A DNA stretch of 29,859 nucleotides from a virus, in the IMG/VR virus record IMGVR_UViG_3300002231_001862, positions 1 through 29,859 of that record; one strand, written 5' to 3'. Below the pieces are notes generated by a model. That model did no database searches. It saw only the letters and a list, made by a program, of their open reading frames with translations, and had not been told where the DNA came from. The translations under genes and the position numbers were made by a program. Shown one piece after another: positions 1,717-17,748 of the stretch (position 1 is its first letter; the number at the start of each line of letters is the position of its first letter).

Positions 1717-3246
1717 TTGTCTTACGAATACAAGACAAAGCCTCACGATCACCAAGTAAAAATACTGAAAGATTCTTGGGGTCAAGAAAACTGGGGCATA
1801 TTTGCAGAGATGGGGACTGGTAAGTCCAAGATTGTAATTGATAGCGCAGCAGCCATGTATGAGAGAGAGGGTTTGGATGGTGTCTTAATAGTTGCTCCGA
1901 AAGGCAACTACAGGAACTGGGAAGACGAGATAGACATCCATCTTCCAGAGCGGATAGATCGAACAGTCGTCACCTGGAAGCCGTCGAAGTCCAAGACGTT
2001 TACAAAGGAACTGAATCGTCTCTGGGCCACTGACGACTCCCTGCATTTCTTTCTAGTCAATGTCGAAGCTCTCTCATCAAAGACCTTCGACAACCCAGCG
2101 TGCCAAGCAGCAGAGAAATTTGTTCTGAACCACGACTCTATGCTCGTGGTTGACGAGTCCACTTGCATCAAGACAGAGAGCGCAAGTCGGACAAAGAGCT
2201 GTGTGCGCTTAGCTAAATCTTGCAGGTGGCGGCGAGTTCTGACCGGCACGCCCGTCACAGAGACACCACTGGATCTCTGGGGTCAGGCATGCGTTTTGAG
2301 TGGAGGCAATCCCGAGACACTGATCGGGCACAGTTCTTTCTTTTCGTTTAGGAATCATTTCTGCCACCTCAAGAAGATGGATTTTTCCGGGCGGCGAGCG
2401 TTTCAGGTTGTCACGGGGTACCGGAACATCGAAGAGCTAGCGGACACGATCTCAGGCTGGTCGAGCCGGGTCACTAAAGCTGAGTGCCTCGATCTTCCCC
2501 CCAAGAGCTACACAAAATACGATGTGGAGCTGACAACCGAGCAGAAATCTCTCTACAAGAAAGTGAGGGAAGAAGCCCGCATAGACTTGGAAGAGTCCAA
2601 GAGCCTGTCGATCATGGTAGCTGTCTCACGCTTGATGAGGCTCCGGCAGGTTCTATCTGGATTTTTGCCAGTAGACCCAGAGCCTATCAGTGTATTTGGC
2701 GGTTTAGAAGGCCCGGAAGGCTCTGAGAGGGACGATCTATTCGATCACGGTCGCGAGGTAGTGGAGATACCAGAAAACAGAACCAAGGCCCTTTTGGAAG
2801 TAGCCGAGAACTTGAGGGGTAAAGCCCTCGTGTGGGCTTGTTTCCGAAGAACTGTATCGAAGCTCGTAGACGTACTGGAGCAGGAGTACGGGAAAGGGTC
2901 CGCTGCAGGGTACTCTGGCGAGACCAAAACCGACGATCGCAAGGAAGCGATCCGGCGATTTCAGGATCCAGAAGACCCACTGCGGTTTCTCGTTTTGAAC
3001 CGTGCAGGGGCTTACGGAATCACGCTCACAGAGGCCCACACTGCTATCTATTACGAGAATGATTGGTCTCTTGAAGTGAGGATGCAGAGCGAAGACCGCT
3101 GCCACCGGATCGGTACTAGGTCAGCAGTGACTTATGTGGATCTTTGCGCGCAAGGTACGATTGACGCAAAGCTCATCCGGGCGCTGCGAGAGAAGAAAGA
3201 GATCTCAAAGGCGATCTTGCAAGAAGGAGTAGAGGAATGGATCTAG
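1717..3246 (+). CDS. SNF2-family DEAD-like helicase / ATPase
   Basis: 509 residues starting on TTG, with AAAGGTGG just upstream. All helicase landmarks of a compact phage SNF2 protein are present. PHDHQ lies near residue 9, and Walker A AEMGTGKS is at 30-37. The DExx box is VVDEST at 144-149, and motif III is LTGTP at 175-179. The second RecA domain has VWACFRRT, the motif V stretch GAYGITL and motif VI QSEDRCHRIG. The tail (GTIDAKLIRALREKK) is typical of phage SNF2 enzymes. Such proteins translocate on duplex DNA using ATP and are usually encoded in replication or recombination modules. The DEST box in place of DEGH/DEAH is common in this group. The nuclease two genes upstream is a plausible partner. 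Confidence 0.92.
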   Translation: MSYEYKTKPHDHQVKILKDSWGQENWGIFAEMGTGKSKIVIDSAAAMYEREGLDGVLIVAPKGNYRNWEDEIDIHLPERIDRTVVTWKPSKSKTFTKELNRLWATDDSLHFFLVNVEALSSKTFDNPACQAAEKFVLNHDSMLVVDESTCIKTESASRTKSCVRLAKSCRWRRVLTGTPVTETPLDLWGQACVLSGGNPETLIGHSSFFSFRNHFCHLKKMDFSGRRAFQVVTGYRNIEELADTISGWSSRVTKAECLDLPPKSYTKYDVELTTEQKSLYKKVREEARIDLEESKSLSIMVAVSRLMRLRQVLSGFLPVDPEPISVFGGLEGPEGSERDDLFDHGREVVEIPENRTKALLEVAENLRGKALVWACFRRTVSKLVDVLEQEYGKGSAAGYSGETKTDDRKEAIRRFQDPEDPLRFLVLNRAGAYGITLTEAHTAIYYENDWSLEVRMQSEDRCHRIGTRSAVTYVDLCAQGTIDAKLIRALREKKEISKAILQEGVEEWI

Positions 3247-3630: not shown

Positions 3631-3867
3631 CTAGAACACGCAGAGTTTCTCGCCTCTTAGGTAGCGAAGCTCGCAAAAGTACGGGACAACACGCTCGCGC
3701 AGGTACTCTCTGGTGTTCTCACACTCTTGAGTACCCTCCAGGCTTCGCAACTCAAGCTTCACCCCATGCTTAGCTCGAGGCACAGGCGGTATGGGGGAAG
3801 GCCAGATAGAACTACAACTCGTCGTACCAACGAGTACTATTGAGAGCGCCAACAGTAGCTTTCTCAC
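3631..3867 (-). CDS. outer-membrane lipoprotein spanin (Rz1-like)
   Basis: 78 residues from a GTG start preceded by a strong GGGAGGGAGG. The N-terminus is a lipoprotein signal: MRKLL, a hydrophobic core, then GTTSC with the lipidated Cys at residue 18. A short Pro-rich stretch follows (WPSPIPPVP), as in Rz1 proteins. The start lies 56 bases inside the end of the preceding inner-membrane protein gene in a different frame, which is the overlapped Rz/Rz1 architecture. Spanin pairs fuse inner and outer membranes at the last step of lysis in Gram-negative hosts. The sequence after the Pro-rich part is basic and contains two Cys. The architecture makes the call fairly strong despite the absence of sequence family evidence. 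Confidence 0.75.
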   Translation of the reverse strand: MRKLLLALSIVLVGTTSCSSIWPSPIPPVPRAKHGVKLELRSLEGTQECENTREYLRERVVPYFCELRYLRGEKLCVF

Positions 3868-4042
3868 GTTCCTCCCTCCCCTTCGCTTGACCTTCCAAAG
3901 CCCGCTGGGACTCCTTTGCTTTCATGCGATCCTTCGCGCCTCGCCGCAAATAACGGACGGACTGCCTCCATACGAACCCAGCCGTCGCCAGGAAACCCAA
4001 AAGGAAAGCAGTCCATTTTGCGATCGAATCGATCTCGAACAT
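3812..4042 (-). CDS. inner-membrane spanin (Rz-like)
   Basis: 76 residues from the ATG at 4042, which overlaps the preceding TGA (TGATG). A longer in-frame extension upstream lies inside the holin gene and is rejected. The N-terminus has one membrane segment (WTAFLLGFLATAGFVW, about residues 10-25). It is followed by a strongly basic and acidic helix with coiled-coil character (residues 30-62). This is the topology of an i-spanin: N-terminus inside, helix in the periplasm. It is short for an Rz protein. Its 3' end contains the start of the lipoprotein gene, which is the main argument for a spanin pair. Confidence 0.68.
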   Translation of the reverse strand: MFEIDSIAKWTAFLLGFLATAGFVWRQSVRYLRRGAKDRMKAKESQRALEGQAKGREEREKATVGALNSTRWYDEL

Positions 4043-4257
4043 CAGGCTGTGGGAGCAGAGACAGCACGCCGAAGACCCAAGCCTACGAGAACGCCGGAGA
4101 TCTTGACAATCCAGCCTTCGATCGTTGTACACATCTCAGGGCCGATGATCCCGAGGTTGCACATCTCGCCAGCGATGGCGTCCCCTGCAGTGAAGAGCAC
4201 CAAACCCCACGCCGTCAGACTCTGGTACCAGTTCTTGCCGCTGAAAAGCTCACCCAT
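4042..4257 (-). CDS. holin-like small membrane protein
   Basis: 71 residues from the ATG at 4257. This start gives an ATGGGTGA overlap with the endolysin stop and has AAGGAG six bases upstream. An ATG at 4275 adds six residues but has no ribosome binding site. Two hydrophobic segments (about residues 12-30, LTAWGLVLFTAGDAIAG, and 46-62, IEGWIVKISGVLVGLGL) are joined by a short loop with two Cys. The protein ends in a basic, polar tail (LRRAVSAPTA). Size, two membrane spans and placement directly after the endolysin and before the spanins indicate a holin, which would open the inner membrane to release the endolysin. Direct family recognition is weak. Confidence 0.7.
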   Translation of the reverse strand: MGELFSGKNWYQSLTAWGLVLFTAGDAIAGEMCNLGIIGPEMCTTIEGWIVKISGVLVGLGLRRAVSAPTA

Positions 4258-4678
4258 CTTCTTCTCCTTTGTCATTTAGATACTTGAGCTCCCAGTGAGC
4301 CAAGTCCCTGAACGTCTCATTCAGATCCAAATCCTGATCCCAGTCCCCGCCCCATACTAACTGATCAGTCAATCCAATTTTCCTTGAAGCACTTAAAACA
4401 ACACCAGCTAATGCGTAGTAAAGCAGTGGGTTCTGGTAGTTTATTGGGTAGGGGTCGATATGCACCGCTTCTGCAGGGGTCCGGTTGTGCTTACTCATGG
4501 GGTACTTCACCTTCGTAGACCCCCAAGCGTAGTACTGGTCTTGTAGTTCTTTTCCACGTACTGAGTCAGTAAGAGTGATGTCAAATGGTGTCAACTTTAG
4601 AACTTCATCCACAAGCTCGCGGAGGAGGGGGTGAACTCTAGACCTGTGGTACAGAGACCTCTTGCCCCAAGAAAACAT
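4250..4678 (-). CDS. endolysin, M15-family peptidase
   Basis: 142 residues from the ATG at 4678, which overlaps the preceding TGA (TGATG). A longer in-frame extension runs into the upstream gene and is not needed. The layout is that of a single-domain phage L-alanyl-D-glutamate or D-Ala-D-Ala-type peptidase. HPLLREL at 16-22 is followed by TPFDITLTDSVR (30-41), the metal motif SKHN with H64, and AVHIDPYP (71-78). VWGGDWD (108-114) and DLAHWEL with D126 and H128 complete it. T5-type M15 endolysins have about the same length. It cleaves peptide crosslinks of peptidoglycan after holin triggering. His73 stands where most relatives I know have Asp, although D75 lies two residues later; see the findings. 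No signal peptide is present, so release depends on the holin. Confidence 0.85.
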   Translation of the reverse strand: MFSWGKRSLYHRSRVHPLLRELVDEVLKLTPFDITLTDSVRGKELQDQYYAWGSTKVKYPMSKHNRTPAEAVHIDPYPINYQNPLLYYALAGVVLSASRKIGLTDQLVWGGDWDQDLDLNETFRDLAHWELKYLNDKGEEDG

Positions 4679-4953
4679 CACTCGCACTCTCCAGCTTCTC
4701 GGCATACTTCCAGAGCTCTTTGGATGTACCTCTTCCTTTTCTCCACGGCTTCCGCCCAAATCACTTGGTACTCAGCGTTGTCTTCTTCTAGTGCTTCGAG
4801 ACGTGGCTCATGTTCTACGGTCATTTCGTGCGTTTGGTTTGCCTGGAAGACCCAGAAGAACACCCCTGCCAACCCCGCAAGCAAACCTAGAAGAACCGTG
4901 AGATGCGACAACGACTTGAAAGCGTTTCTGAGGAGTTCTGCGAAATGTCCCAT
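4678..4953 (-). CDS. membrane-anchored coiled-coil protein of the lysis cassette
   Basis: 91 residues. A short N-terminal amphipathic stretch precedes one membrane span (about 18-38, LTVLLGLLAGLAGVFFWVF). An acidic helical domain follows (45-85) and ends with two Cys (VCREAGEC). It begins two bases after the stop of the 946-residue protein and overlaps the endolysin start. Topology resembles an i-spanin or a lysis regulator, but a better spanin pair lies downstream. It could be an antiholin, a second holin-type protein or an additional envelope factor. No family is recognised. Confidence 0.6.
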   Translation of the reverse strand: MGHFAELLRNAFKSLSHLTVLLGLLAGLAGVFFWVFQANQTHEMTVEHEPRLEALEEDNAEYQVIWAEAVEKRKRYIQRALEVCREAGECE

Positions 4954-4955
4954 GA

Positions 4956-7796
4956 CTACCTAGTCGAGAGGTTGATGTTCTCTGTCCACTGGAAGCAGCC
5001 GGAGCAGGGTTCATTCGATTCGTTGGTACCGGCATCAAATCCCACGTCTGTCGCAAATGCCCCAGCACCACTGGCAGCGAGCGGAGAGAAAGCGGTACCG
5101 AATACCGTGTCTGCGCCTACGTCATGACGAAGAAGAACCATCCAGCCGTCCCCGTAAGAGCCAGTGATGTAATCATCGGATCCTTGCCAGTTTGCTCCAG
5201 TCCAAAGATAGGAATCTCCGTCATTGTTCGTACTAAGGTTTCTGCAAAACCACCCTTCAAACGGGGAAACGTGCCCACTCGCACTAGAATAGAATTGCTG
5301 GTAAGCAGAGTTCATGACATTGACATTCGAGCCATCTTGACCCTGACCCAGAATAAACTGCTGGGTGCCTGTAAATCCGAAATTGTCACATACTCCGTTG
5401 CGGGGGCTGGTGTCGCCGACAAGAGAGTGCTCGATGTAAAAGACAAAATCGTCAGGATAGTTGTCGATTTTGTCGTACACCCAGTTCCGCCAAGGAGAAG
5501 AATACGAAGACACATTGAACGGCAAAAATGCAGTCAACCACCACCTGTCGAGTACCTTGAACCTCATAGACTGAGCCAAGTCATCTGCATTGGGGTAATT
5601 GAACTGAGCGATGTCGGTATCGTTGAGGCTCGTCAGCTCAACAAAAGGCGTAAAAGACTGGTAGACGCTTCTATCAAAGTACGTCTGATAGACGGAACAG
5701 GACTCGCCTGGGACACAATCGTGATTCCCCGGAGGAGCCAGCCAAGGCACTGGTACGTTGCTCAGTGTCCCAAGCCTTTGGTACAAAAGACTCGTGTTTG
5801 CAGTGGCTTGACCAGCGGGGGATCCTTGTGATGCTGTACTCGAAATGTCGCCTACTCCAGCAAAGTACTTCACATTAAAGCACTCATTGCTTGCCGGGTT
5901 AGCTCCGCCCTTTACTTTCCCTGTGTGGAAGCATTCTCTTGTGTCAATCACCCACTGGATTAGCTCATCGAAGTACCCAGAATCAATGTCCGCCAAAGTA
6001 GGGTTAGCCTGGGGCCACTGATTCTGTGTGTCTGGCGCGTAAGCGATAGTAAACGTGTCATAGCAAGCGGCGGGCGCAGTTCCTGCGTCAACCTCAAGCT
6101 CACAGTCATCGTAGTGAGTACCTTCGGTCAACCCCGCAGCGGTGATTTTTGTTGCAGCGCCAGCCCCCGTGTACCCACTAGAAGAGTCTGTTTGATCGCT
6201 AAACGCATCGGCTTGGATCGTTCCTCCTGTAACAGACACTAAATCGATCGCGGAGGTTGCGATGTCCGTATCCCAGTCCAGCACGTTGTAACGCAAATCA
6301 AACCCGGCAGCGGAGTCTACTCGCACAGCGTGAGTGAGCTGAGAACCTGACCCCCCTTTGATTCTATTCAGAGCCAGCATTGCGCTGGACCCAGGGCCGC
6401 TCAAAGAGATCCCAATCTTTTCTTTGCCTGTCTTTACGTCAATCAGATTTTCAACGAAGTCCACGTCACTCGAGCTAGTGGACAAAGTGTCAATCGATAC
6501 GGAAGAACAAGAAGAGGTATTGTACGTAGTGGTTTGACAAGAATCTGTAATCTTGTTTCCGTATATCCTTACATCCTGCGAGTCGCCTTGAAAACGAATA
6601 CCTGTACTCATGGTATTCGTAATCGTGTTCCCTTCTACGACGACCGGCCCAGAAAGATCGCCCGTAGCGCCGACCAGGCTGATACCGAATCCCGTATTGA
6701 GCCCCTCTTCTCCTTTGACTAAGTGGTTTTTTACTACGTTGTTTTTTATGGTGGGTCTCGAAGAAGAATTTGCAACAATCGAAGAACCATCTAATACATT
6801 GCTTTCGATCGTACCATCTGTGTTGGTGCTCCCCAAAAGCTCCAAGCCCATCTTGGTGGCAAAGCCAACTGTGTTGTTTTTCAGAGCGACGTTTGAGTTG
6901 TACGCAGACGCAAGCACCCCGTATCCGTTTGTCGTTCTTCCAGTAGACCACCCAGATACAGAAACTGAGTAGATCGAAGGGACTTGCTTCCAGTTGTCTC
7001 CGCAGTCGCCGTCAACCGAAGTGCCAGTAGGGTCTGTCACGCAACCTATTTTTGAAATGACGTTGTTCTGTACTACCACACCACTCGTATTTTCTAAGGC
7101 CAGCCCACGTCCACTTGAGTTTGTGAACTCATTCCCTTCGATAATGTGATTGTCGCCATCTTGCACTCGGACCAAAGACTGATACGGGTAACCACCGCTG
7201 GTAGCGTTACACACACCCGTCCCCGCGTTCTCTAACGCCAGACAATCCTCTGGACGCGGTGCGGGTTGCAGTGCCTTTTGCCCGTCGAACTTAATGTTCT
7301 TGATCTGTATTCCATTTGCCACGCCATCCGCGTCACCCAAGCACTCTTCGTTTCGGGGATCAGGAGAATGCTGGGCTGTGACATAGGTAATACAGAGCAG
7401 GGGACGGTACCCCTCTGACTGGCACTGAAAAGATGTAACTCCGTCGTCTTTGCACTCATTGGTGTCAGCGGTAGTAGATGTGACACTAGCTAACACTGCT
7501 TGCTTCCATGTCGGCTTAGATCCACGTACTGGACCGACAACCCCCACCATATTGGGCTGGTCTCCGTCAATTGTAATAGAGCCAGTGACTACAGCAGACT
7601 TGTCCAAAAAGAAGTTGCATCCTGTTCCGCAAGAAGTCATTGCGGCGTCAAGAGCGGTCTGATCCACTTCTCCCGCCAAGACTACAGTGGGAACGTCGGG
7701 GTCTCGGTACGCCATTCTCTTCACGACAACGGCAGAGTAGGCTTGCTCTGTCAAAAGAAAGAGCAAGAAAGAGAAGTAGACCAGAGTCTTACTCAT
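4956..7796 (-). CDS. signal-peptide-bearing beta-helix protein with metallophosphoesterase domain (tailspike-like)
   Basis: 946 residues. Residues 1-21 form a Sec-type signal (hydrophobic FSFLLFLLTEQAYS, likely cut after AYS). Residues about 160-530 read as right-handed parallel beta-helix rungs (repeats such as IEGNEFTN, VVQNNVISKIG, IKNNVVKNH, VVEGNTITNT, IYGNKITD), typical of phage tailspikes and depolymerases. Residues about 583-905 match a calcineurin-like phosphoesterase. The landmarks are APDTQ (D589), GVGD (D650), PPGNHD (N691, H692, D693), IEHS (H790), SGH (H842) and a late GANWQ strand. The first motif is D-x-Q instead of D-x-H, as in one branch of the superfamily. There are 22 Cys, many closely paired, which fits an oxidising compartment. 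It lies between a second signal-bearing fibre gene and the lysis cassette; its ATG overlaps the previous TAA by eight bases. Virion tailspike and exported enzyme are both possible. Confidence 0.8.
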   Translation of the reverse strand: MSKTLVYFSFLLFLLTEQAYSAVVVKRMAYRDPDVPTVVLAGEVDQTALDAAMTSCGTGCNFFLDKSAVVTGSITIDGDQPNMVGVVGPVRGSKPTWKQAVLASVTSTTADTNECKDDGVTSFQCQSEGYRPLLCITYVTAQHSPDPRNEECLGDADGVANGIQIKNIKFDGQKALQPAPRPEDCLALENAGTGVCNATSGGYPYQSLVRVQDGDNHIIEGNEFTNSSGRGLALENTSGVVVQNNVISKIGCVTDPTGTSVDGDCGDNWKQVPSIYSVSVSGWSTGRTTNGYGVLASAYNSNVALKNNTVGFATKMGLELLGSTNTDGTIESNVLDGSSIVANSSSRPTIKNNVVKNHLVKGEEGLNTGFGISLVGATGDLSGPVVVEGNTITNTMSTGIRFQGDSQDVRIYGNKITDSCQTTTYNTSSCSSVSIDTLSTSSSDVDFVENLIDVKTGKEKIGISLSGPGSSAMLALNRIKGGSGSQLTHAVRVDSAAGFDLRYNVLDWDTDIATSAIDLVSVTGGTIQADAFSDQTDSSSGYTGAGAATKITAAGLTEGTHYDDCELEVDAGTAPAACYDTFTIAYAPDTQNQWPQANPTLADIDSGYFDELIQWVIDTRECFHTGKVKGGANPASNECFNVKYFAGVGDISSTASQGSPAGQATANTSLLYQRLGTLSNVPVPWLAPPGNHDCVPGESCSVYQTYFDRSVYQSFTPFVELTSLNDTDIAQFNYPNADDLAQSMRFKVLDRWWLTAFLPFNVSSYSSPWRNWVYDKIDNYPDDFVFYIEHSLVGDTSPRNGVCDNFGFTGTQQFILGQGQDGSNVNVMNSAYQQFYSSASGHVSPFEGWFCRNLSTNNDGDSYLWTGANWQGSDDYITGSYGDGWMVLLRHDVGADTVFGTAFSPLAASGAGAFATDVGFDAGTNESNEPCSGCFQWTENINLSTR

Positions 7797-9678
7797 CGAG
7801 AATTACCACCACTTGACCAGGGCTACCAGTAGTGGCCCCGAAGACAATATCGACCCATTCACCAGCCCCTAGAGCAGCGCCGCTGGATCCTCCAAAAGTA
7901 CTGGTAGATGCTCCAGCGTGGGAGCTCGTGCAAGTGAGAGAAGTGGAAAGCATGTTCCCTGCAGAGACACCGTCGTCTATTTGGATATTGACAGCAATTG
8001 TCCCTTGGTCCGTCTTGCAGTACAGGTTCCCCGCAGTAAACCCTACCCGCACTCGATCAATGTCTTTAATGGTGGAGTCCGCTGCAGGGCCTTCGATGAA
8101 GTATGTCAGGTGGCTAGGAACCGCCGGTATTGCTGAAGCGCCTAGATATACATCGTCGCCATTCTTTACGCCGTCGCGGTTTTCATCAAGAAACGGGTGA
8201 CCTTGGGAAAACGTAGTAGTCTCAGACGGGTCGATCGATATGCAGATCGAGTCGTCGATCATATTGCCTAGGTTTGCGTAGCCCGTGGTAGAAGACGCCA
8301 GGCAGTAGCCTCCACCATTTCCGGCAGTCGAGGGCTCTGAAGAAACTACAAATTTCCCTGCGGCCAAGTCTTGATTGTAATCACTTTGAAGACCCATTAC
8401 AGGAGAGTAATCCTCCCCAACGTAACCAAGAGCCTCAAGGAAGGCTCCAGTATTGTTTGTGCCTATATGGAGCATTGCTTGCGGAAGTGATCCTGATGAC
8501 GGGCCATCTTTGTTAATGCGGATCAAATTGTTCTGACCAGCGCGTCCTCTGTCGTACAAGCTAAGAGCTTCTCCAGTTGAAGTCTTTGCGTTTACTTCTA
8601 CGGTAGCGAGATGGATTCCTGCCAAAGGTCCATGACCAACTTCTTGTTCATGAACACCAAAGATATAAGAAACCAATCCCGGCCCGCTACTTGCGCCACT
8701 ATGGCTTGCAGTTCCTGCAGGGAAGTAGACGCCTTTTCCTTCTCGAGCGACTCCAATAGGGAAGTATCTTCCATCTCCAGCCACAGCAAAAACTGAACCG
8801 ATGTCTGCGTATCCCGTACCCGCTGCTTGAGTAAACGCATCATCTAGCCAAATAAGAAACGTCAAATCCGCCAATTGGAAAGTAGGCTCTGCGGTGGTAG
8901 AGACTTTGGCTAAAAGACCAACGCATTGGTTTTGCGTAAGAGTGATTTCTCTTTCGAGATAAAATGGGACTCGGCTAAAGCCACCCGTAAATGTCCCAAA
9001 AACATCCGTAGAAGTTCCGGTTGCATCAGAATTTGCAACTGGAGTGGCCCCTACACCTAAGTCCAGTAAGACGCTCTGCCCACCTACAGTAGTATCATAA
9101 GACCCAATTAATTGAACAAGAGCACCCGTCGAGGCAGAGCCGCTGTAACAGACTTCGATTTTACCTGTTGTCGCGCTTAGATTTGCGCCCATGTCGTAGT
9201 TTTCTGTCAGATTTGCCGTTGCGGCGTTAACGAGGGTGTACGTCGATGTATTAAGAGATGTCGCTGTCAAATCGGAGTTCGAGGAGGAACTCGCTGCAGC
9301 TTGCCCGTAAGAACCTCCATTCTTTGACTCCCCTGCACCGCCACCTCCGCCAGAAGACGTTGCTGTCAGAACGCCGCCAGTAAGATCCCACGTCACACTT
9401 GAGCTGTCTTGAATGTCAATCGCAGCCTCCGCTGATCCCGCGTTCTTGATCTCTACTTGCGTTCCAGAACCAGAAGTAGGGCCAGTAGTGACTTGGACTA
9501 CACCGGACCCCACGTTGGTGAGAGATCCGTTGGAGACCTCAATCGTGGACACCCCCGACAGACTGGGAGACCCGTCCTGCTCTTGTACCACTAGGCGATT
9601 GAACGCTTGACCAGACACATGATTGCTAACCAGAAAAGCAATACTCAAAAGCCCCACGAGAGAAAGAATCTTTTTCAT
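7789..9678 (-). CDS. fibre-like protein with Sec signal peptide and one dockerin-type calcium loop
   Basis: 629 residues. MKKILSLVGLLSIAFLVSNHVSG is a clear signal peptide without a lipobox, likely cut before QAFNRL. The following FNRLVVQEQDGSPSLSGV and SNGSLTNVGSGVVQVT segments resemble tip proteins of environmental tailed phages. A Gly/Ser linker (108-135) leads to a beta-rich domain (about 140-290) of possible TNF/C1q-like or lectin-like shape, though this is only an impression. A calcium loop DENRDGVKNGDD at 498-509 fits the DxNxDGxxNxxD rule. The C-terminal ~100 residues form a beta-sandwich-like domain ending in QVVVILDE. It contains six Cys. The location among tail fibre genes suggests host-surface binding; the signal peptide is atypical for a structural phage protein. 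Confidence 0.75.
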   Translation of the reverse strand: MKKILSLVGLLSIAFLVSNHVSGQAFNRLVVQEQDGSPSLSGVSTIEVSNGSLTNVGSGVVQVTTGPTSGSGTQVEIKNAGSAEAAIDIQDSSSVTWDLTGGVLTATSSGGGGGAGESKNGGSYGQAAASSSSNSDLTATSLNTSTYTLVNAATANLTENYDMGANLSATTGKIEVCYSGSASTGALVQLIGSYDTTVGGQSVLLDLGVGATPVANSDATGTSTDVFGTFTGGFSRVPFYLEREITLTQNQCVGLLAKVSTTAEPTFQLADLTFLIWLDDAFTQAAGTGYADIGSVFAVAGDGRYFPIGVAREGKGVYFPAGTASHSGASSGPGLVSYIFGVHEQEVGHGPLAGIHLATVEVNAKTSTGEALSLYDRGRAGQNNLIRINKDGPSSGSLPQAMLHIGTNNTGAFLEALGYVGEDYSPVMGLQSDYNQDLAAGKFVVSSEPSTAGNGGGYCLASSTTGYANLGNMIDDSICISIDPSETTTFSQGHPFLDENRDGVKNGDDVYLGASAIPAVPSHLTYFIEGPAADSTIKDIDRVRVGFTAGNLYCKTDQGTIAVNIQIDDGVSAGNMLSTSLTCTSSHAGASTSTFGGSSGAALGAGEWVDIVFGATTGSPGQVVVILDE

Positions 9679-9680
9679 GC

Positions 9681-10034
9681 CTATGAATCCTTGTAGATGG
9701 TTTCGTCTTCAACAGCAGCGATTGTCACGTCTGTAACACTGCTAAAGATGACGGTGATGTAACCATCCGCCGAGTTAAATCGCCTGGTGTCAAATGGGGG
9801 TAGGGGGTAGAAAGTGTTGGCTGGAATCGTCAACGTCTTGTCAGGGTAGGGGCCAAAGTTAGAGTCTCGGTGAGACTTGATCGTGCAAGTCACGGAGGCT
9901 CCATCATTGACCACCCAAACCCGCGTCCGTCCTCGAGGGTTGTATGCGCGGTCTCCGGTTGTAACTGTCGCCGCAACGTAGGTTGGAGCAGTTGCACCGA
10001 TCGTCAAAAGATTATTTAGACCCAGATCTGCCAT
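9681..10034 (-). CDS. small beta-rich structural protein
   Basis: 117 residues starting 15 bases after the fibre paralogue, with AGGAAGGG upstream. The composition is beta-strand-rich with turns (VWVVNDGASVTCTIKS, DKTLTIPANTFYPLPP, NSADGYITVIFSSVTDVTI). It lacks a signal peptide, unlike the gene that follows. Similar 100-130 residue beta-sandwich proteins occur among tail fibre, decoration and fibre-attachment genes of siphoviruses. I cannot place it in a named family. Context supports a virion component or an adaptor between the hub and peripheral fibres. Confidence 0.65.
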   Translation of the reverse strand: MADLGLNNLLTIGATAPTYVAATVTTGDRAYNPRGRTRVWVVNDGASVTCTIKSHRDSNFGPYPDKTLTIPANTFYPLPPFDTRRFNSADGYITVIFSSVTDVTIAAVEDETIYKDS

Positions 10035-10988: not shown

Positions 10989-11923
10989 CAGGTAACCGCG
11001 ACGGGGTAAGAAAGTCCTTCAAAATGGACTTCGTCTGTGGTTACGCTGGCAGAACCGAGAATACGCGCCCAGCCCGCAGTGTTGATTTCAACAACAACAC
11101 CATCGTATACAGTAAACAACTGCTGATAAGTCGGACGGTATCCAACCGGCATAGTGAAAATAGGAACAGATTCGCTGCCGTGAACAACAGTTATCGCCCC
11201 AGCAATTAGTTCTATGCCCCCATCTAGAATGACCCTTCCATGCTCTTTTCTAAAACGGTAAGAAGGTCTGTTGGGCGAAGTCACAGCATCTAACTGCCTC
11301 CACCCAGAAACTAAAGTAGGCCCAGCTTGCCAATCTTCTACAGGATTCTGATTGTCGAGTACCAGAAACGCTTCTCGGATCTGGTTTGCAACCAGTGCAT
11401 CGCCCGCGCTAGGCAAAGGTAGGAGCAAATTAGGAGTGAAATCTCTGTAAATTACCGTGGGTACGTCTACACACGTAGCCCCAAAACCAGAGTCGATTGT
11501 GAGCTCGTCTTCCCCTGGGATAGCCAGAACCTTTTTTCTTAGAAAAGCCCCCGCAGCGGTTTTAATGACCACAAGATCATTAACTTTGACTGCACCTTGA
11601 GAAGGGGAGGTCTTGAACAAAGGAGGATTCTGATGAATGCCAGTCTCATCCTGAGTAGAGATAGAAGTTATTGTCGCGGTGGCCCCACTCGAGCTTCCGG
11701 TAATCAGGTCTCCCTCTTCTGGGAAGTCACCAGAAGTGCGTGAAAATCTGGCTATTGCGTTCGATATAGGTACGCTAAGAAGAGTTCCCGTTCCTGCAGA
11801 GGAGTCCCAAGTAATACTCTCAGAAAGAGTAAACGTGCCAGTAACAGTCCCTATAGTGACAGACCATACTGATTTGACACTAGTGCCTGTGCCGTTGATG
11901 TGAAAATTCCTGAATTGCGTCAT
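10988..11923 (-). CDS. tail fibre-like protein, upstream member of a tandem paralogue pair
   Basis: 311 residues. The ATG overlaps the stop of the hub gene (ATGA), pointing to translational coupling with it. The N-terminal ~90 residues hold a VWSVTIGTVTGTFTLSESIT unit and a GDLITGSSSGATATIT unit, motifs that recur in fibre proteins of environmental phages. The C-terminal ~110 residues form the HGRVILDGG...PVGYRPTY...INTAG...DEVHF domain shared with the next gene. No signal peptide is present. Coupled production with the hub is consistent with a fibre bound to the tail tip. Confidence 0.75.
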   Translation of the reverse strand: MTQFRNFHINGTGTSVKSVWSVTIGTVTGTFTLSESITWDSSAGTGTLLSVPISNAIARFSRTSGDFPEEGDLITGSSSGATATITSISTQDETGIHQNPPLFKTSPSQGAVKVNDLVVIKTAAGAFLRKKVLAIPGEDELTIDSGFGATCVDVPTVIYRDFTPNLLLPLPSAGDALVANQIREAFLVLDNQNPVEDWQAGPTLVSGWRQLDAVTSPNRPSYRFRKEHGRVILDGGIELIAGAITVVHGSESVPIFTMPVGYRPTYQQLFTVYDGVVVEINTAGWARILGSASVTTDEVHFEGLSYPVAVT

Positions 11924-14900
11924 AACTTAAATACCTGCGCCTGCCCTTCGATCTCGGTAGTAGATCGATTACCTGTATGACGGACCAATGTATAGTGGTA
12001 ATTCTTTCTGGCGTTCATAATATCTGAGTCACCCCCAGCAATGCTGTTTCTTTGCCCTCCGAATCCCGTAATTTCACCCGAAACAACTTTGACTAGGTCG
12101 TAAGAGTCCCCCACAGCAGGGGCTGAAGTCCAAGTAGTATTTTCTCCAGTCACGATGTTTCCGTTGGAAGAGACAATCTTTTTGGTCTCTTCGTCTGTCT
12201 CGCCTGGTCTAAGTACAAGGTAAGATTTCTTTACAAGGGTGTGCTCTCCGTCTACCCAACTGACATTGGCGTCTTCTAGCCGTCCATCGCTTCTTGCAGC
12301 GGTTACAACGCCAGATTCTTTTCTCATGATGAAGTAGGTATTATCAGATCCGCTTTGAACTGCAGCGTCAAAACGGATATGGATTTCCCTGCCCGAAGTA
12401 GTCAATGAAATTGAATCCAGTGGCATCACTTCGACAGGTGAAGAGCCGCTGTAGGCAGTCGATGCCTTGGTAAAAGAAGAACTCGCAGTGCCAGTGGCTG
12501 AAGACAAGAAGGCTCTTCTTGTCGTAGTGACAGATTCGTTTCTTACGTTTACGCCTGTAGTAGTACGTATCGCATGGAGGTTATCAAAAGACCAAGTAGA
12601 TCCCGAAGACACGGGCTGTGCCTGTCCTTGGATCTCAGGGATAGCAATGCCAAGCACTGCATAAGAAGAGTTGGATGGAGCTGGCCCCACTTGGCTTACG
12701 TCAACTGTCCACCATTCATTGTTGTTGGCGGTATAGCCAGGGATGTACCAAGTAGTGTAATTATTTCCGCCGCCGGATGGTGGATAAGTGGTAAATCCAG
12801 CTTGCACCGGGTCACTGACAGCAGTTGCAATGTATGTCCCGTCAGCCTGATAAAAAGCAGCGGCAACTTTGTACCCGACCGTAATCAGACCTGGAGACCA
12901 AGCAGGCCAGACAAACTCAAAATCTACAGAGTGGTACACATCAAAACGAAAATCGAAAGTGTCTCCTTCAACGCAAGTAATCTGACCGGCAGAACTGGGA
13001 GTTCCCGCGTCTCCATTAGACACAAGCCAAATGCACGGAGCTGACCCTGCTAACTCAGTACCAGTAGATGTGTACTTAATTGAGTTGCCGGGTGTCTTAA
13101 ACACGTCAGTATCAAATGACCAAACTCCGTTGTTAGCGGAGTTTGTAAAAGGATTCCCTGATTGACCGTATGAGACATCATAGAGACTTGAAGCGTCTCC
13201 AATGGCTGGGGTAGTCACTTCAATGTACGGATCAGACAAGAGTTCGCCGACGTACGAAACTGAATCTACGTTGGGGTCTAGCCCGCTAATGTTTCCTGTA
13301 TACGTCGGAGAGATGTATAGATTTTCTGGTGCGTCCGAGAAAACATCCATCGCTGCGTACCTATAAGAAAAAACAAGAGAGCTTCCTTTTGGCCGAAGCC
13401 GAAGACGGTCGGTCTTCTGACCCCAGTAAAGACGGTTGCTTAACGTAAGGTCTGCGTCAGAAAGAGATCCTTCTCCTTCTTTTGCCCAGACGATCAGACC
13501 AGTAATTCTTGGATCGTTAATGCCGTCCCAGTTTAAGTCAATGTCCCATGAATCAATACTGGGCGAAGCGGACACAAACTCAGGGTACTGAGGCGCTGTG
13601 TTTTGAGGGGCTATGCTCGCGTAATCAGAAGATCGTTTGTTTGCGCCTTTGGTGTACACGCGAAAATGAAGGTACCTGGACGGGTACGCTTTACCCTGCA
13701 AACTGGAATCTTCTTTGTTCATCGCCACTGTGTAGTTATACGAAGTCCCCGTAGTTGATTGACTTCTAAGAAGTTCGCCAGTTTTTCTGTCAAATACTTC
13801 TACGTCGTACCCGTCTACGTTTACTGGAATTGTATCAACATCATTTTGGTTTTCGTCGTTGACAAGAATGTTGCCTGTCAGAGAAACGGCATCCCATGCG
13901 ATCCTGAAAGTACTATCACTGACTTCCAGTGGAGTAGATCCAGTTATTGTAGGAACACCTTGAAGCCGAATACCTGTGGGGGCAGGGACTACGACATCTA
14001 TAGTGGCAGGGACGTAAACTAAGTCGCTAACAAACCCAGGGAAAGACCCAATGCCATCTTGCGTTACAGCTTGAACAGAGACAGTAAGTACACCGTACGG
14101 GACATTAGTGATAGTAAGACTCGCTGTATTGACGTACTGATCGGCAATTATTTGGTCTTCACTTTGAACCACTACTCTCCATTTGTAGTAGGACAATCCC
14201 GCATCGCTAACGCCTCCTCCCAGGACTATCCCGCTAGTCCCTGAATAAGTCTGATCTGGTCCGACAGGGGTCTGAGCCCAAGTAATGATTGCGTCAGCCC
14301 TAACGGCGGGACCATCTTCCACCAAAACCTGCTTGATTTTCACTGCATGCGGAGGCTTCAATCTGCTGTCAAAAGGCATCAACCCTGTAGAAGAACTTTG
14401 GACCCAATCAGAAGTAATACCATTCGAGGAGACACTTTGGACTCTTACATCGACTCTGTCGTAGTAATCTGACTCAATGGTCTCGAGGGTTGCGTCAGGA
14501 GGTACGCTTGTATAAGGGAAAGCAAAGTCTTCAAGATACCCACTCATCTCAGTATCAGTTGATCCAGAAGCAAAAGTATTCCAAGAAGAAGAAATCTGAA
14601 CTAATTCGCCAAGAGGAGTAAGCCTGGGCTGCGTGTACTGACTGATAGAGCGAATCCTAAACTGAGCGTTATACGCCACCGTAGGAGATTCCCCGGCAGA
14701 TCGAGGGTTAGGCTTCACTTGGAGGTAAACTTCGTAGTCTTTGTCGAACCTTCCCGTGTTGGGTCCGTTTGGCAGGGAGACATCAAAAGACTCTTGACCA
14801 CGGACACCTTGAGTACGGATCCCTGCGTGAATGAGCTGTGGCGTTCCGGGGGGCCTCAAGTCATTGTTTTCATCAACAATGAAAGAAGGTCTCTGTGTAG

Positions 14901-17748
14901 CTGTAGAACCAGGTATCGCCTCAGTCAGCCATTTGTCGGTTACAGATCCTCCGTGCGGCTGAACCGAAACACGAGCTCTGTACCCTTCCAGAGGGCTGAT
15001 GGCAATCACATTGACTTCTTCCGCAACTTCGACGGCTTTTCCGATAACGACAAGGTCTCCAATCGAAGCATTAACGCCAGATGGAGATTCAAACGTAGAA
15101 GACTCCGCTCCGTCCATTCCAAAATAGACGTTTGTTGAAGAAGACGCCGGGCGAGGAGAAGACAAAGTAAAGTACTGATCTACAGAAGTAGAAGACCGAA
15201 CCCACATCCCGTAATCTTGAGTAGACGGCTGCTCGTATTGGATTTCTTCGTCAAGGCTAAATCCTAGAATGCTTCCATCTTCCTTCGTAATAAAAGAATC
15301 GATTCTCCCAGCCTGCTGGTGACCCTCAAATATAAAATTCGAGTACAAGACCATGTCGCCTCTTTCAGAAACGAGATGCTCCCAGTCTGTCTCGAAATTC
15401 ATCATGTCAGATCGAACAGGCGCAAACAAAAACGCTCGCCGCCCGTGCTGCCACGCAAGCGGAAGGTATGTGCAGCCGTAAACCTCTAGCGTCTCGAATT
15501 TCGTCGCTTCTTTTGTCTCTAAAGTAGACCCAACTCCCGCTGTAAACGAAGTCTGTATGGGAGAACCCCAAAGCGTAAGCTTGTCTTCACTGACAGATCT
15601 AATAAGAACTGTGTCGTCTTGGGTGTTCACTGCAAACTTAGGGTCTGTCGAGGACGAAGGATTTAACTTGACCCAAGTGAGTGGGTCAAAATAATCGCGA
15701 AGATCAAAACTAGCGGAGAAGGATGGTCGAATAACATTACCACCGGCTTCAAAAGAAAGCACCCAGTCTGCGGGAGTAATCGCGGGTCTCAGCCCATACC
15801 CACGGTCGTATACAACGAGTTCATCTTGACCCCAATTCGCTTCTTCAGATATGTACTTGACGCGAATCGCATGAGGTATGTCTGTAATTATCTTTTCGTA
15901 TCGATTCGAGGAAGTATTTCTAGCACTGTAAACTTGAGCGTGTGCCGTCTTTTTTTCCTCAAGCAGGATCGTCCAAATACCATCAGATAGATGAGGCGCT
16001 GCGAAAGCTATTGAAAGCGTGTCTGACAGAACTTGGAAACAATCTGAATCGAAGTCGAATATTTTATCGTGCGGCCTAGAGTATTCCCCCTGCGTGGGCT
16101 CGCAGACAGCGGCAACCTCTGCAAAACGATCGAGGTCAATACGGCTATCAGGTACATCGGAGTACTGCCGGAGTATGTCTGCAGCGTGCCAGACAGGGTT
16201 TCTTGTCTTTGTCGGAGCAGACCAAGTCTGCTCAGATGCGTCATAGACGGGAATCAAACCTTCTACAGTACCGCGGAGTTGGTCTATAGTGCCGTTCAAC
16301 TGCTCGGAGGCTTGTATTCTCAGCTCAATGAAAGCTTGTTTTTTGTGGTTTACAGGTCTTTTGAATTTCGTAGTAGAAACTTCCGTCCATCTGAAATCTT
16401 CTATAACGACTGTCGGAAGTTTACCCCCCTGGCCTCCTCTTTCTTTTGAAAAGAATATACGGCTAGGAGCAATGTCGGGAAGACTGACGGTAGTAGATCT
16501 TTTTCCTACAGGGTATCCCGTTACTCGGATCTCGTATTGTTGCCGAGAAGCTGTTTTCCAAGACAAGCTCAAGAACATTCCTTCTCGCACACTCCCCGCA
16601 ATGTAGATACGCTTTGATAAAGTAAGTGGGCTAGGAGAGGCTACTTGTATTCTGGCAGAGCCATGCGTTTCCCAAGTAAATTTGTCTTGGTCAGCGGCGC
16701 TTTCCCAAGGCCCAAAAGGAGCAGAGCCATTGGTGGTAGACCTGACTTCTACGTGTATTGAAGTAGCTCTGTCTCTTTCTTTTCCTTTGGGGCTTACGTG
16801 GCGTAAACCAGAAGGGAACTGAAAACCTACTGTTATCTCGTCTGCCAAGGCAGACGTGACATGCGTATACTGAGCGTACGCAACCTTGGTATCGGATCCT
16901 GGCAATATCTCCGGCTTAAAGTCGAATGAAACAGGCTCTGTTACGACTGTGTCGGGGTATATCTGAAAGTCAGGGTAGTCCGAGGATCCATCATGTATGA
17001 TGTAATCGACACCTTCGTAGCTAGTCAGTGGAGTAGCACCGATTTTTAGATTGGTGATCTCAACTGGGCCGTACCCCGCGCTAAAAAGCATCCTCAAGTA
17101 CTGCTTGTTACCAAGAATTTCCGCATACGGAAGCGCAGCAAGAGGAAAGGTCATACGGTGCCTACCGTAGACTTTGGGGACAGGAGAATTCCGATATGCT
17201 TGGTTACGAGTCCCGCGAATCGTAGGACTTCTTTCTGGGTTGGAAGAATCTACATTCGGCTGAGACGGAGTTCCAATAATTGCGTTAGTGGCTGCGCTGA
17301 GAGCTACTCCAAGAGCAGCGTATAGCCCCGCAGTAAGGACACCGTAAGCGAGAACAGCACCAAGAGAAGTAGCTGTGATAGCCGCACCAATACCAGTCGC
17401 CGCTGCAATGGCAGTGCCTGCTCCGCCCCCTGCAGCGGCTGCGGGTAACGCCGCATTGATGATGGCAATGACAATCGCTTCGATCTCAGGAGAACTCGTA
17501 CCAACAACAAAAGACCCAGGTCGCGGTATCGTCGATTGCCACCGAGAAGGCGGGACGACTTCTCCGTCCATAACAACATGCACGGGAAGGCCGCGCTTGG
17601 GGAGCCTTCCCGACTCGACAAGCATTTCGTCGATGCTGGTCCCCTGCGAGAAAAGTCGCGCTTTTCCCTGGGCGAAGGGGTGGTCCCTAGACTCAAATCG
17701 TATTGAGCAAGGAACTATATCAGAGCATTGATTTGTGCCGGTAAACAC
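11920..17748 (-). CDS. tail tip hub / central fibre, J-like host specificity protein with fused N-terminal I-like region
   Basis: 1942 residues from a GTG start with AAAGGA about ten bases upstream, overlapping the NlpC/P60 gene by 29 bases. Residues 30-85 resemble the small beta-grasp-like domain found at the front of such proteins (GTSIDEML, VVMDGEVVPPSRW). A glycine/alanine-rich hydrophobic stretch follows (88-160), as in gpI-type tail assembly proteins. The gpJ signature begins at about 175: IRGTRNQ, SPVPKVYGRHR, FPLAALPY, FSAGYGPVEITNLKIG. Residues about 1130-1490 read as fibronectin type III-like repeats. Residues about 1506-1732 look like a jelly-roll carbohydrate-binding module. The last 210 residues form a beta-rich tip. 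The protein closes the tail tube and determines host contact. Confidence 0.9.
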   Translation of the reverse strand: MFTGTNQCSDIVPCSIRFESRDHPFAQGKARLFSQGTSIDEMLVESGRLPKRGLPVHVVMDGEVVPPSRWQSTIPRPGSFVVGTSSPEIEAIVIAIINAALPAAAAGGGAGTAIAAATGIGAAITATSLGAVLAYGVLTAGLYAALGVALSAATNAIIGTPSQPNVDSSNPERSPTIRGTRNQAYRNSPVPKVYGRHRMTFPLAALPYAEILGNKQYLRMLFSAGYGPVEITNLKIGATPLTSYEGVDYIIHDGSSDYPDFQIYPDTVVTEPVSFDFKPEILPGSDTKVAYAQYTHVTSALADEITVGFQFPSGLRHVSPKGKERDRATSIHVEVRSTTNGSAPFGPWESAADQDKFTWETHGSARIQVASPSPLTLSKRIYIAGSVREGMFLSLSWKTASRQQYEIRVTGYPVGKRSTTVSLPDIAPSRIFFSKERGGQGGKLPTVVIEDFRWTEVSTTKFKRPVNHKKQAFIELRIQASEQLNGTIDQLRGTVEGLIPVYDASEQTWSAPTKTRNPVWHAADILRQYSDVPDSRIDLDRFAEVAAVCEPTQGEYSRPHDKIFDFDSDCFQVLSDTLSIAFAAPHLSDGIWTILLEEKKTAHAQVYSARNTSSNRYEKIITDIPHAIRVKYISEEANWGQDELVVYDRGYGLRPAITPADWVLSFEAGGNVIRPSFSASFDLRDYFDPLTWVKLNPSSSTDPKFAVNTQDDTVLIRSVSEDKLTLWGSPIQTSFTAGVGSTLETKEATKFETLEVYGCTYLPLAWQHGRRAFLFAPVRSDMMNFETDWEHLVSERGDMVLYSNFIFEGHQQAGRIDSFITKEDGSILGFSLDEEIQYEQPSTQDYGMWVRSSTSVDQYFTLSSPRPASSSTNVYFGMDGAESSTFESPSGVNASIGDLVVIGKAVEVAEEVNVIAISPLEGYRARVSVQPHGGSVTDKWLTEAIPGSTATQRPSFIVDENNDLRPPGTPQLIHAGIRTQGVRGQESFDVSLPNGPNTGRFDKDYEVYLQVKPNPRSAGESPTVAYNAQFRIRSISQYTQPRLTPLGELVQISSSWNTFASGSTDTEMSGYLEDFAFPYTSVPPDATLETIESDYYDRVDVRVQSVSSNGITSDWVQSSSTGLMPFDSRLKPPHAVKIKQVLVEDGPAVRADAIITWAQTPVGPDQTYSGTSGIVLGGGVSDAGLSYYKWRVVVQSEDQIIADQYVNTASLTITNVPYGVLTVSVQAVTQDGIGSFPGFVSDLVYVPATIDVVVPAPTGIRLQGVPTITGSTPLEVSDSTFRIAWDAVSLTGNILVNDENQNDVDTIPVNVDGYDVEVFDRKTGELLRSQSTTGTSYNYTVAMNKEDSSLQGKAYPSRYLHFRVYTKGANKRSSDYASIAPQNTAPQYPEFVSASPSIDSWDIDLNWDGINDPRITGLIVWAKEGEGSLSDADLTLSNRLYWGQKTDRLRLRPKGSSLVFSYRYAAMDVFSDAPENLYISPTYTGNISGLDPNVDSVSYVGELLSDPYIEVTTPAIGDASSLYDVSYGQSGNPFTNSANNGVWSFDTDVFKTPGNSIKYTSTGTELAGSAPCIWLVSNGDAGTPSSAGQITCVEGDTFDFRFDVYHSVDFEFVWPAWSPGLITVGYKVAAAFYQADGTYIATAVSDPVQAGFTTYPPSGGGNNYTTWYIPGYTANNNEWWTVDVSQVGPAPSNSSYAVLGIAIPEIQGQAQPVSSGSTWSFDNLHAIRTTTGVNVRNESVTTTRRAFLSSATGTASSSFTKASTAYSGSSPVEVMPLDSISLTTSGREIHIRFDAAVQSGSDNTYFIMRKESGVVTAARSDGRLEDANVSWVDGEHTLVKKSYLVLRPGETDEETKKIVSSNGNIVTGENTTWTSAPAVGDSYDLVKVVSGEITGFGGQRNSIAGGDSDIMNARKNYHYTLVRHTGNRSTTEIEGQAQVFKL

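Follow-up and report, generated by a model that had tools for sequence, protein, structure and literature searches.

A beta-helix protein with a divergent PDTQ-type metallophosphoesterase domain and a predicted Sec signal peptide, encoded in the tail-lysis operon of a siphovirus-like record

The standard view has phage tail fibres assembling inside the host cell, in its reducing cytoplasm. The phi29 protein gp12 is a beta-helix, and we know of no signal peptide either on this protein or on the glycerophosphodiesterase of phage Ld17. Domains of the calcineurin-like metallophosphoesterase (MPE) family PF00149 have been annotated in virion or tail proteins of Enterococcus phage Idefix (IDF_19) and its relatives and of Lactobacillus/Latilactobacillus phages. 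The MPE proteins of Idefix (L139:9790-11355) and of 58 phage records carry various labels, including minor capsid, tail, phosphodiesterase and hypothetical protein. By fold, the best match to the domain described below is found in SMPDL3A and acid sphingomyelinase (PDB 5fc7, 5jg8), extracytoplasmic phosphodiesterases that align with its model over 290 residues (Z 15.5) at 8-9% identity. phi29 gp12 and the Ld17 baseplate glycerophosphodiesterase (cited in PMC6116005) are structural components of phages that break down wall polymers with phosphodiester bonds, and thereby examples of adsorption proteins that cut such bonds.

Here we describe a phage protein that joins a beta-helix to an MPE domain behind a predicted Sec signal peptide. 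Like the Idefix and Lactobacillus proteins, it places a calcineurin-like phosphoesterase on a product of the tail module; those proteins, however, come from Gram-positive phages, have no beta-helix in Pfam and carry an MPE of another subfamily (profile comparison, 5.8% probability). The gp12 and Ld17 enzymes differ from it in their catalytic folds and in their Gram-positive teichoic acid substrates, and SMPDL3A and acid sphingomyelinase in having a complete GHxH motif and no beta-helix. An earlier note on this DNA knew of no such phosphoesterase on a beta-helix stalk. That holds for the scaffold, since the collections searched yielded no second beta-helix-MPE fusion; the enzyme class itself is not new on tail-type proteins because MPE virion and tail proteins are annotated elsewhere. 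New here are the fusion to a beta-helix, the membership in the PDTQ subfamily and the predicted export. If active as predicted, the protein would extend the range of phage depolymerases by a phosphodiesterase from an exported MPE subfamily that has so far gone unstudied.

Operon setting and architecture of the protein

The window, by which we mean the whole stretch of DNA analysed, is a complete IMG/VR virus record of 29,859 bases. The open reading frame list bears out the position that had been given for the fusion gene and puts it on the minus strand, running from an ATG at 7796 to a stop at 4956 (Table 1). Its start is overlapped by 8 nt by the end of the upstream gene; no homolog of that gene's fibre-like product was found in phages, Pfam or PHROGs or by patterns in IMG/VR. 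A holin-like gene begins within 3 nt downstream, followed by the endolysin gene, and the late genes overlap from J through the endolysin. Relatives of the J-type hub protein occur in 89 phage records. With further genes for a tail terminator, tail tube, tape measure, NlpC/P60 and minor tail proteins, and a weak match to a GP7-like major capsid protein, the window reads as a siphovirus, judged by its gene set. The two candidate spanin genes overlap each other (3631-4042), and neither product has a match in a Pfam search; this candidate overlapping pair, together with J relatives in proteobacterial phages, points to a diderm host. No integrase was seen within the 29.9 kb record. An SNF2-type helicase (PF00176, 3.8e-20) is encoded on the plus strand at 1717-3246 of the window, and the early genes beside it run opposite in strand to the late operon.

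Table 1. Positions in the window of the MPE protein, its parts and its neighbours
Feature	Position	Strand	Basis
Beta-helix + PDTQ-type MPE protein, 946 aa	4956..7796	-	ORF list, motifs, domain evidence
Predicted Sec-type signal peptide, residues 1-22 (MSKTLVYFSFLLFLLTEQAYSA)	7731..7796	-	Sequence, hydropathy, heuristic
Parallel beta-helix, residues ~37-530	6207..7688	-	PF13229, PF05048, TIGR03804; model strands; tailspike/lyase matches
MPE domain, residues 580-907	5076..6059	-	Homolog alignment, profile, predicted fold
MPE motif I, APDTQ (587; D589, Q591)	6024..6038	-	Invariant, 16-17 homologs
MPE motif II, GVGD (647; D650)	5847..5858	-	G649, D650 invariant
MPE motif III, PPGNHD (688; N691, H692)	5718..5735	-	G690-D693 invariant
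MPE motif IV, IEHS (788; H790)	5424..5435	-	H790 invariant
MPE motif V, SGH (840; H842)	5271..5279	-	S840-H842 invariant
Fibre-like upstream protein, 629 aa, predicted signal peptide, 6 Cys	7789..9678	-	Sequence
Small tail protein	9681..10034	-	phrog_16194 1e-7
J-type central tail hub protein	11920..17748	-	phrog_469 6.6e-24
Holin-like membrane protein	4678..4953	-	Phage_holin_2_4 0.0012, below cut-off; N-terminal hydropathy 2.48
Endolysin	4250..4759	-	phrog_465 9.4e-24
Candidate inner-membrane spanin, one TM, charged tail	3812..4042	-	Sequence only
Candidate outer-membrane spanin lipoprotein, lipobox GTTSC, Pro-rich	3631..3867	-	Sequence only

The beta-helix, which had been placed at about residues 160-530, is supported by matches to PF13229 (1.9e-11, best stretch residues 207-358), NosD (PF05048; 2.9e-10, residues 291-429) and TIGR03804 (1.8e-5), and extends over residues ~37-530. 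Foldseek matches of the full-length model, a low-confidence model (pLDDT 47) that served only for sorting matches, fell into two groups: MPEs, among them Lmo2642 and purple acid phosphatases, and beta-helices, among them the HK620 and P22 tailspikes, DFA-IIIase and polygalacturonase. A match to PHB depolymerase (0.017) was under the cut-off and was set aside.

The predicted signal peptide reaches a hydropathy maximum of 2.68 and passes a signal-peptide heuristic; the only other nearby start, M28, was rejected, being without a spaced ribosome-binding site. About 12-15 residues separate it from the beta-helix, and no N-terminal virion-binding domain was found in the protein, in which the beta-helix directly follows the signal peptide. 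Cysteines, 22 in number, make up 2.33% of the residues as against 0.60% in the remaining phage proteins (Fisher p 1.5e-6), and they form 11 close pairs, a spacing equalled by 41 of 200,000 random placements. Signal peptide and paired cysteines together fit an exported, oxidised protein, and it is from them that we infer both export and disulfides.

The metallophosphoesterase domain and the PDTQ-type subfamily

All five blocks of the MPE pattern (D-x-H/Q, GD, GNHD/E, H, GH(xH)) are present and in order, as had been read earlier from the sequence (Table 1). Residues D589, T590, Q591, G649, D650, G690-D693, H790 and S840-H842 are invariant across 16-17 homologs. The second His of GHxH, a metal ligand, is missing (GHVSP); the nearest relatives lack it as well (GHI-F, GHV-L), and of these PF00149 matches the ones from Ensifer and Thermoplasmatota. 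The earlier note had offered a PF00149 search as a check on the domain, and taken literally that check fails, with no direct match to the MPE protein even at E 10. We overrule the missing match because of an alignment to Haladaptatus proteins, a profile built without the query and the predicted fold; it is a detection limit and not a defining biological feature.

In a tblastn search of plasmids the best matches were Haladaptatus metallophosphoesterases, weak (E 0.05) but full-length, which themselves match PF00149 at 2e-7 and align with 90% of residues ~580-907 at a pairwise E of 4e-9. A genome scan with the Haladaptatus alignment gave 16 loci in alphaproteobacteria and archaea, and the profile of these 16 homologs, the query left out, gives the MPE protein a score of 43.6 bits (E 1.3e-15); among 1,000 shuffled sequences the highest score was 8.8 bits. 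The predicted domain model is of modest confidence (pTM 0.61, mean pLDDT 51), and its 50 best VIA matches are all MPE enzymes (Z <=15.5), with SMPDL3A and acid sphingomyelinase, extracellular or lysosomal phosphodiesterases, at the top and GpdQ and PhoD also among the matches. Alignment and model thus confirm residues 580-907 as a divergent calcineurin-like metallophosphoesterase with a predicted four-layer MPE fold, and the proposed fusion with a beta-helix is borne out by Pfam, homolog profile and structure matches alike.

By its motifs, the domain belongs to an exported PDTQ-type MPE subfamily of bacteria and archaea. The PDTQ / SGH / GDGW signature of this subfamily is found in the aligned MPE protein; its motif I, which has Gln in place of His, resembles that of B. 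subtilis YvnB. Members are largely extracytoplasmic, as giant RTX, PKD, LamG or DUF4214 proteins or as lipoproteins, with Tat and Sec signals. Those compared (alphaproteobacterial RTX/DUF4214 giants, Haladaptatus, Thermoplasmatota) have the motifs and a C-terminal GDGW...LL segment in common with the MPE protein and are likewise of extracytoplasmic type, at 18-25% identity. Differences lie in a lack of the conserved PRD and R887-type residues, in that none of them has an N-terminal beta-helix, and in that none is located in a phage tail operon; the relatives inspected leave no N-terminal space for an equally placed beta-helix of such size.

Homologs from Haladaptatus adjoin PhoU, PhoX, a glycerophosphodiesterase and ppk1, and one in a Bacteroides-type contig lies among SusC/SusD-like proteins and glycan-hydrolase-like neighbours, as read from sequence; such neighbourhoods suggest phosphate or glycan catabolism. 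In 398 Pseudomonadota genomes a profile search matched the subfamily in 16, a few of these being short general MPE matches; a single-sequence search of the same genomes was empty but uninformative. Some of the Pseudomonadota proteins have GERD, GDRD or GDHD replacing GNHD, suggesting inactive relatives inside the subfamily.

Searches of IMG/VR, phages and plasmids by tblastn, or by pattern and tblastn, gave no close relative of the entire protein, and the MPE domain was found in 0 of 80 J-relative loci. No PDTQ-type MPE was confirmed in IMG/VR by a pattern-limited search. In the 'phages' collection, PDTQ-type MPEs occur in five fecal contigs, and the two that were read (MT835827, MT836095) were rejected as phage on account of their transporters and SusC/SusD-like genes; across the IMG/VR patterns and these two contigs, no genuine phage record was found. 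Both are 'Bacteriophage sp.' records from bacterial chromosome, a trap for phage annotation. We also set aside as chance a match in MT837625, to a Bacteroides-like lipoprotein, and a similarity of residues 827-895 to the E217 collar protein gp28 (E 0.0016) in segments conserved in all MPE homologs.

Proposed function and competing readings

We propose that the MPE protein is a Sec-exported, disulfide-bonded, surface-directed phosphodiesterase from the tail-lysis operon of a siphophage that infects a diderm bacterium, a reading to which we give about an even chance (roughly 0.5). The signal peptide would be cut near residue 21-22 after Sec export, and the beta-helix and C-terminal MPE domain would fold outside the cytoplasm, with as many as 11 disulfides holding the protein together. 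The MPE domain would hold two metal ions (D589, Q591, D650, N691, H790, H842) and hydrolyse phosphodiester bonds, while the beta-helix would bind, and perhaps also process, the polymer that carries these bonds, most probably a host envelope or extracellular polysaccharide that contains phosphate. Co-produced with tail fibres and lysis proteins, the enzyme would act on the envelope at release; alternatively, it may ride on the particle and be active at adsorption. A Sec-only route ends in the diderm periplasm, and surface polymers would therefore be reachable only with lysis or another step.

Catalysis is expected from the retained motifs: every metal-site motif of the subfamily is kept. Against this count the Gln for His in motif I and the absent last His of GHxH, both common to the relatives, and the fold support comes from models of modest confidence (pLDDT 47-51). 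The substrate is the weakest step, suggested by fold class and homolog context; the surface-polymer phosphodiester that had been put forward earlier is a sensible class.

The earlier note called the protein tailspike-like. Its beta-helix body stands, but tailspikes are assembled in the cytoplasm without a signal peptide, and this protein carries one, so that a standard tailspike identity is doubtful. In the form in which we consider it, the protein would be a virion tailspike or tail-tip depolymerase with a beta-helix stalk, perhaps trimeric, whose MPE tip cuts a phosphodiester in a receptor polysaccharide at adsorption; the signal peptide would then belong to an unusual way of assembly, with fibres that mature beyond the cytoplasm and are added to particles when the cell lyses. 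The gene's place after J, the small tail protein and the fibre makes a virion role possible, and in relatives the same slot holds a 'tail spike' or SASA esterase, or collar-domain tail proteins that likewise have signal peptides. MPE-bearing tail and virion proteins are known in Gram-positive phages, and the HK620 and P22 tailspikes are among the Foldseek matches; the beta-helix, however, matches secreted enzymes equally well. The 22 paired cysteines and the short stretch between signal peptide and beta-helix, with no domain for binding the virion, also tell against this reading, which we regard as a serious possibility short of likely. That the MPE protein ends on particles has a chance of about one in three.

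An unlikely reading is a secreted enzyme for nutrient scavenging or lysogenic conversion, which would supply the host or viral DNA synthesis with phosphate released from extracellular nucleotides, phospholipids or phosphopolymers. The phosphate-gene neighbours of the Haladaptatus homologs and the predicted SMPDL3A-like fold would suit such an enzyme; however, a gene inside the late tail-lysis operon would come too late to feed replication, small substrates need no beta-helix, and the record shows no integrase. Very improbable is a catalytically dead MPE domain serving as a binding module, a lectin-like tip on the beta-helix: the two departures from the canonical metal site and the GERD and GDRD members of the subfamily would allow it, but the remaining motif residues, GNHD included, are invariant with the relatives.

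Post-J proteins of related phages

Returning to the exported phosphodiesterase, the closest parallels to its position are post-J proteins of Bradyrhizobium phage ppBdUSDA122-1 (L140:5417-9498) and its relatives, which occupy the same slot and share a predicted Sec signal peptide and paired, even cysteines but have collar or fibre domains and neither beta-helix nor MPE. Two such proteins follow J in this phage, each with a predicted signal peptide: one is of collar type and has 6 Cys, the other is a fibre whose 18 Cys form 9 pairs. The signal peptide of the collar protein is kept in eight IMG/VR relatives, with homologs 51-58% identical; that of L147 was read by eye, the heuristic having missed it, and L148 is truncated. 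Among wider relatives the heuristic gave a borderline excess of signal peptides in post-J proteins (8/112 vs 2/122, p 0.051). Since tail proteins of relatives carry them in this slot, a signal peptide alone is no bar to a tail role.

Either post-J fibres are exported in such phages, or the slot holds secreted proteins misread as fibres. We tentatively suggest, while holding it to be rather doubtful, that a siphophage lineage Sec-exports its post-J fibres and spikes, which would fold with disulfides outside the cytoplasm, and that the beta-helix phosphodiesterase is one cargo of this route, joined to the particle at lysis or set free as an enzyme. Conserved Sec signals with paired cysteines on post-J fibre-type proteins of several alphaproteobacterial siphophages conflict with the standard view of fibre assembly, and Sec-exported post-J tail fibres are the broader point and the one most worth following up. 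The literature covered, which lay mostly outside subscription journals, held nothing relevant on exported tail fibres or MPE tailspikes. Post-J fibre or collar proteins with signal peptides and paired, even cysteines were noted in L140-L148, L061, L062, L074 and L112 and at 7789-9678 of the window.
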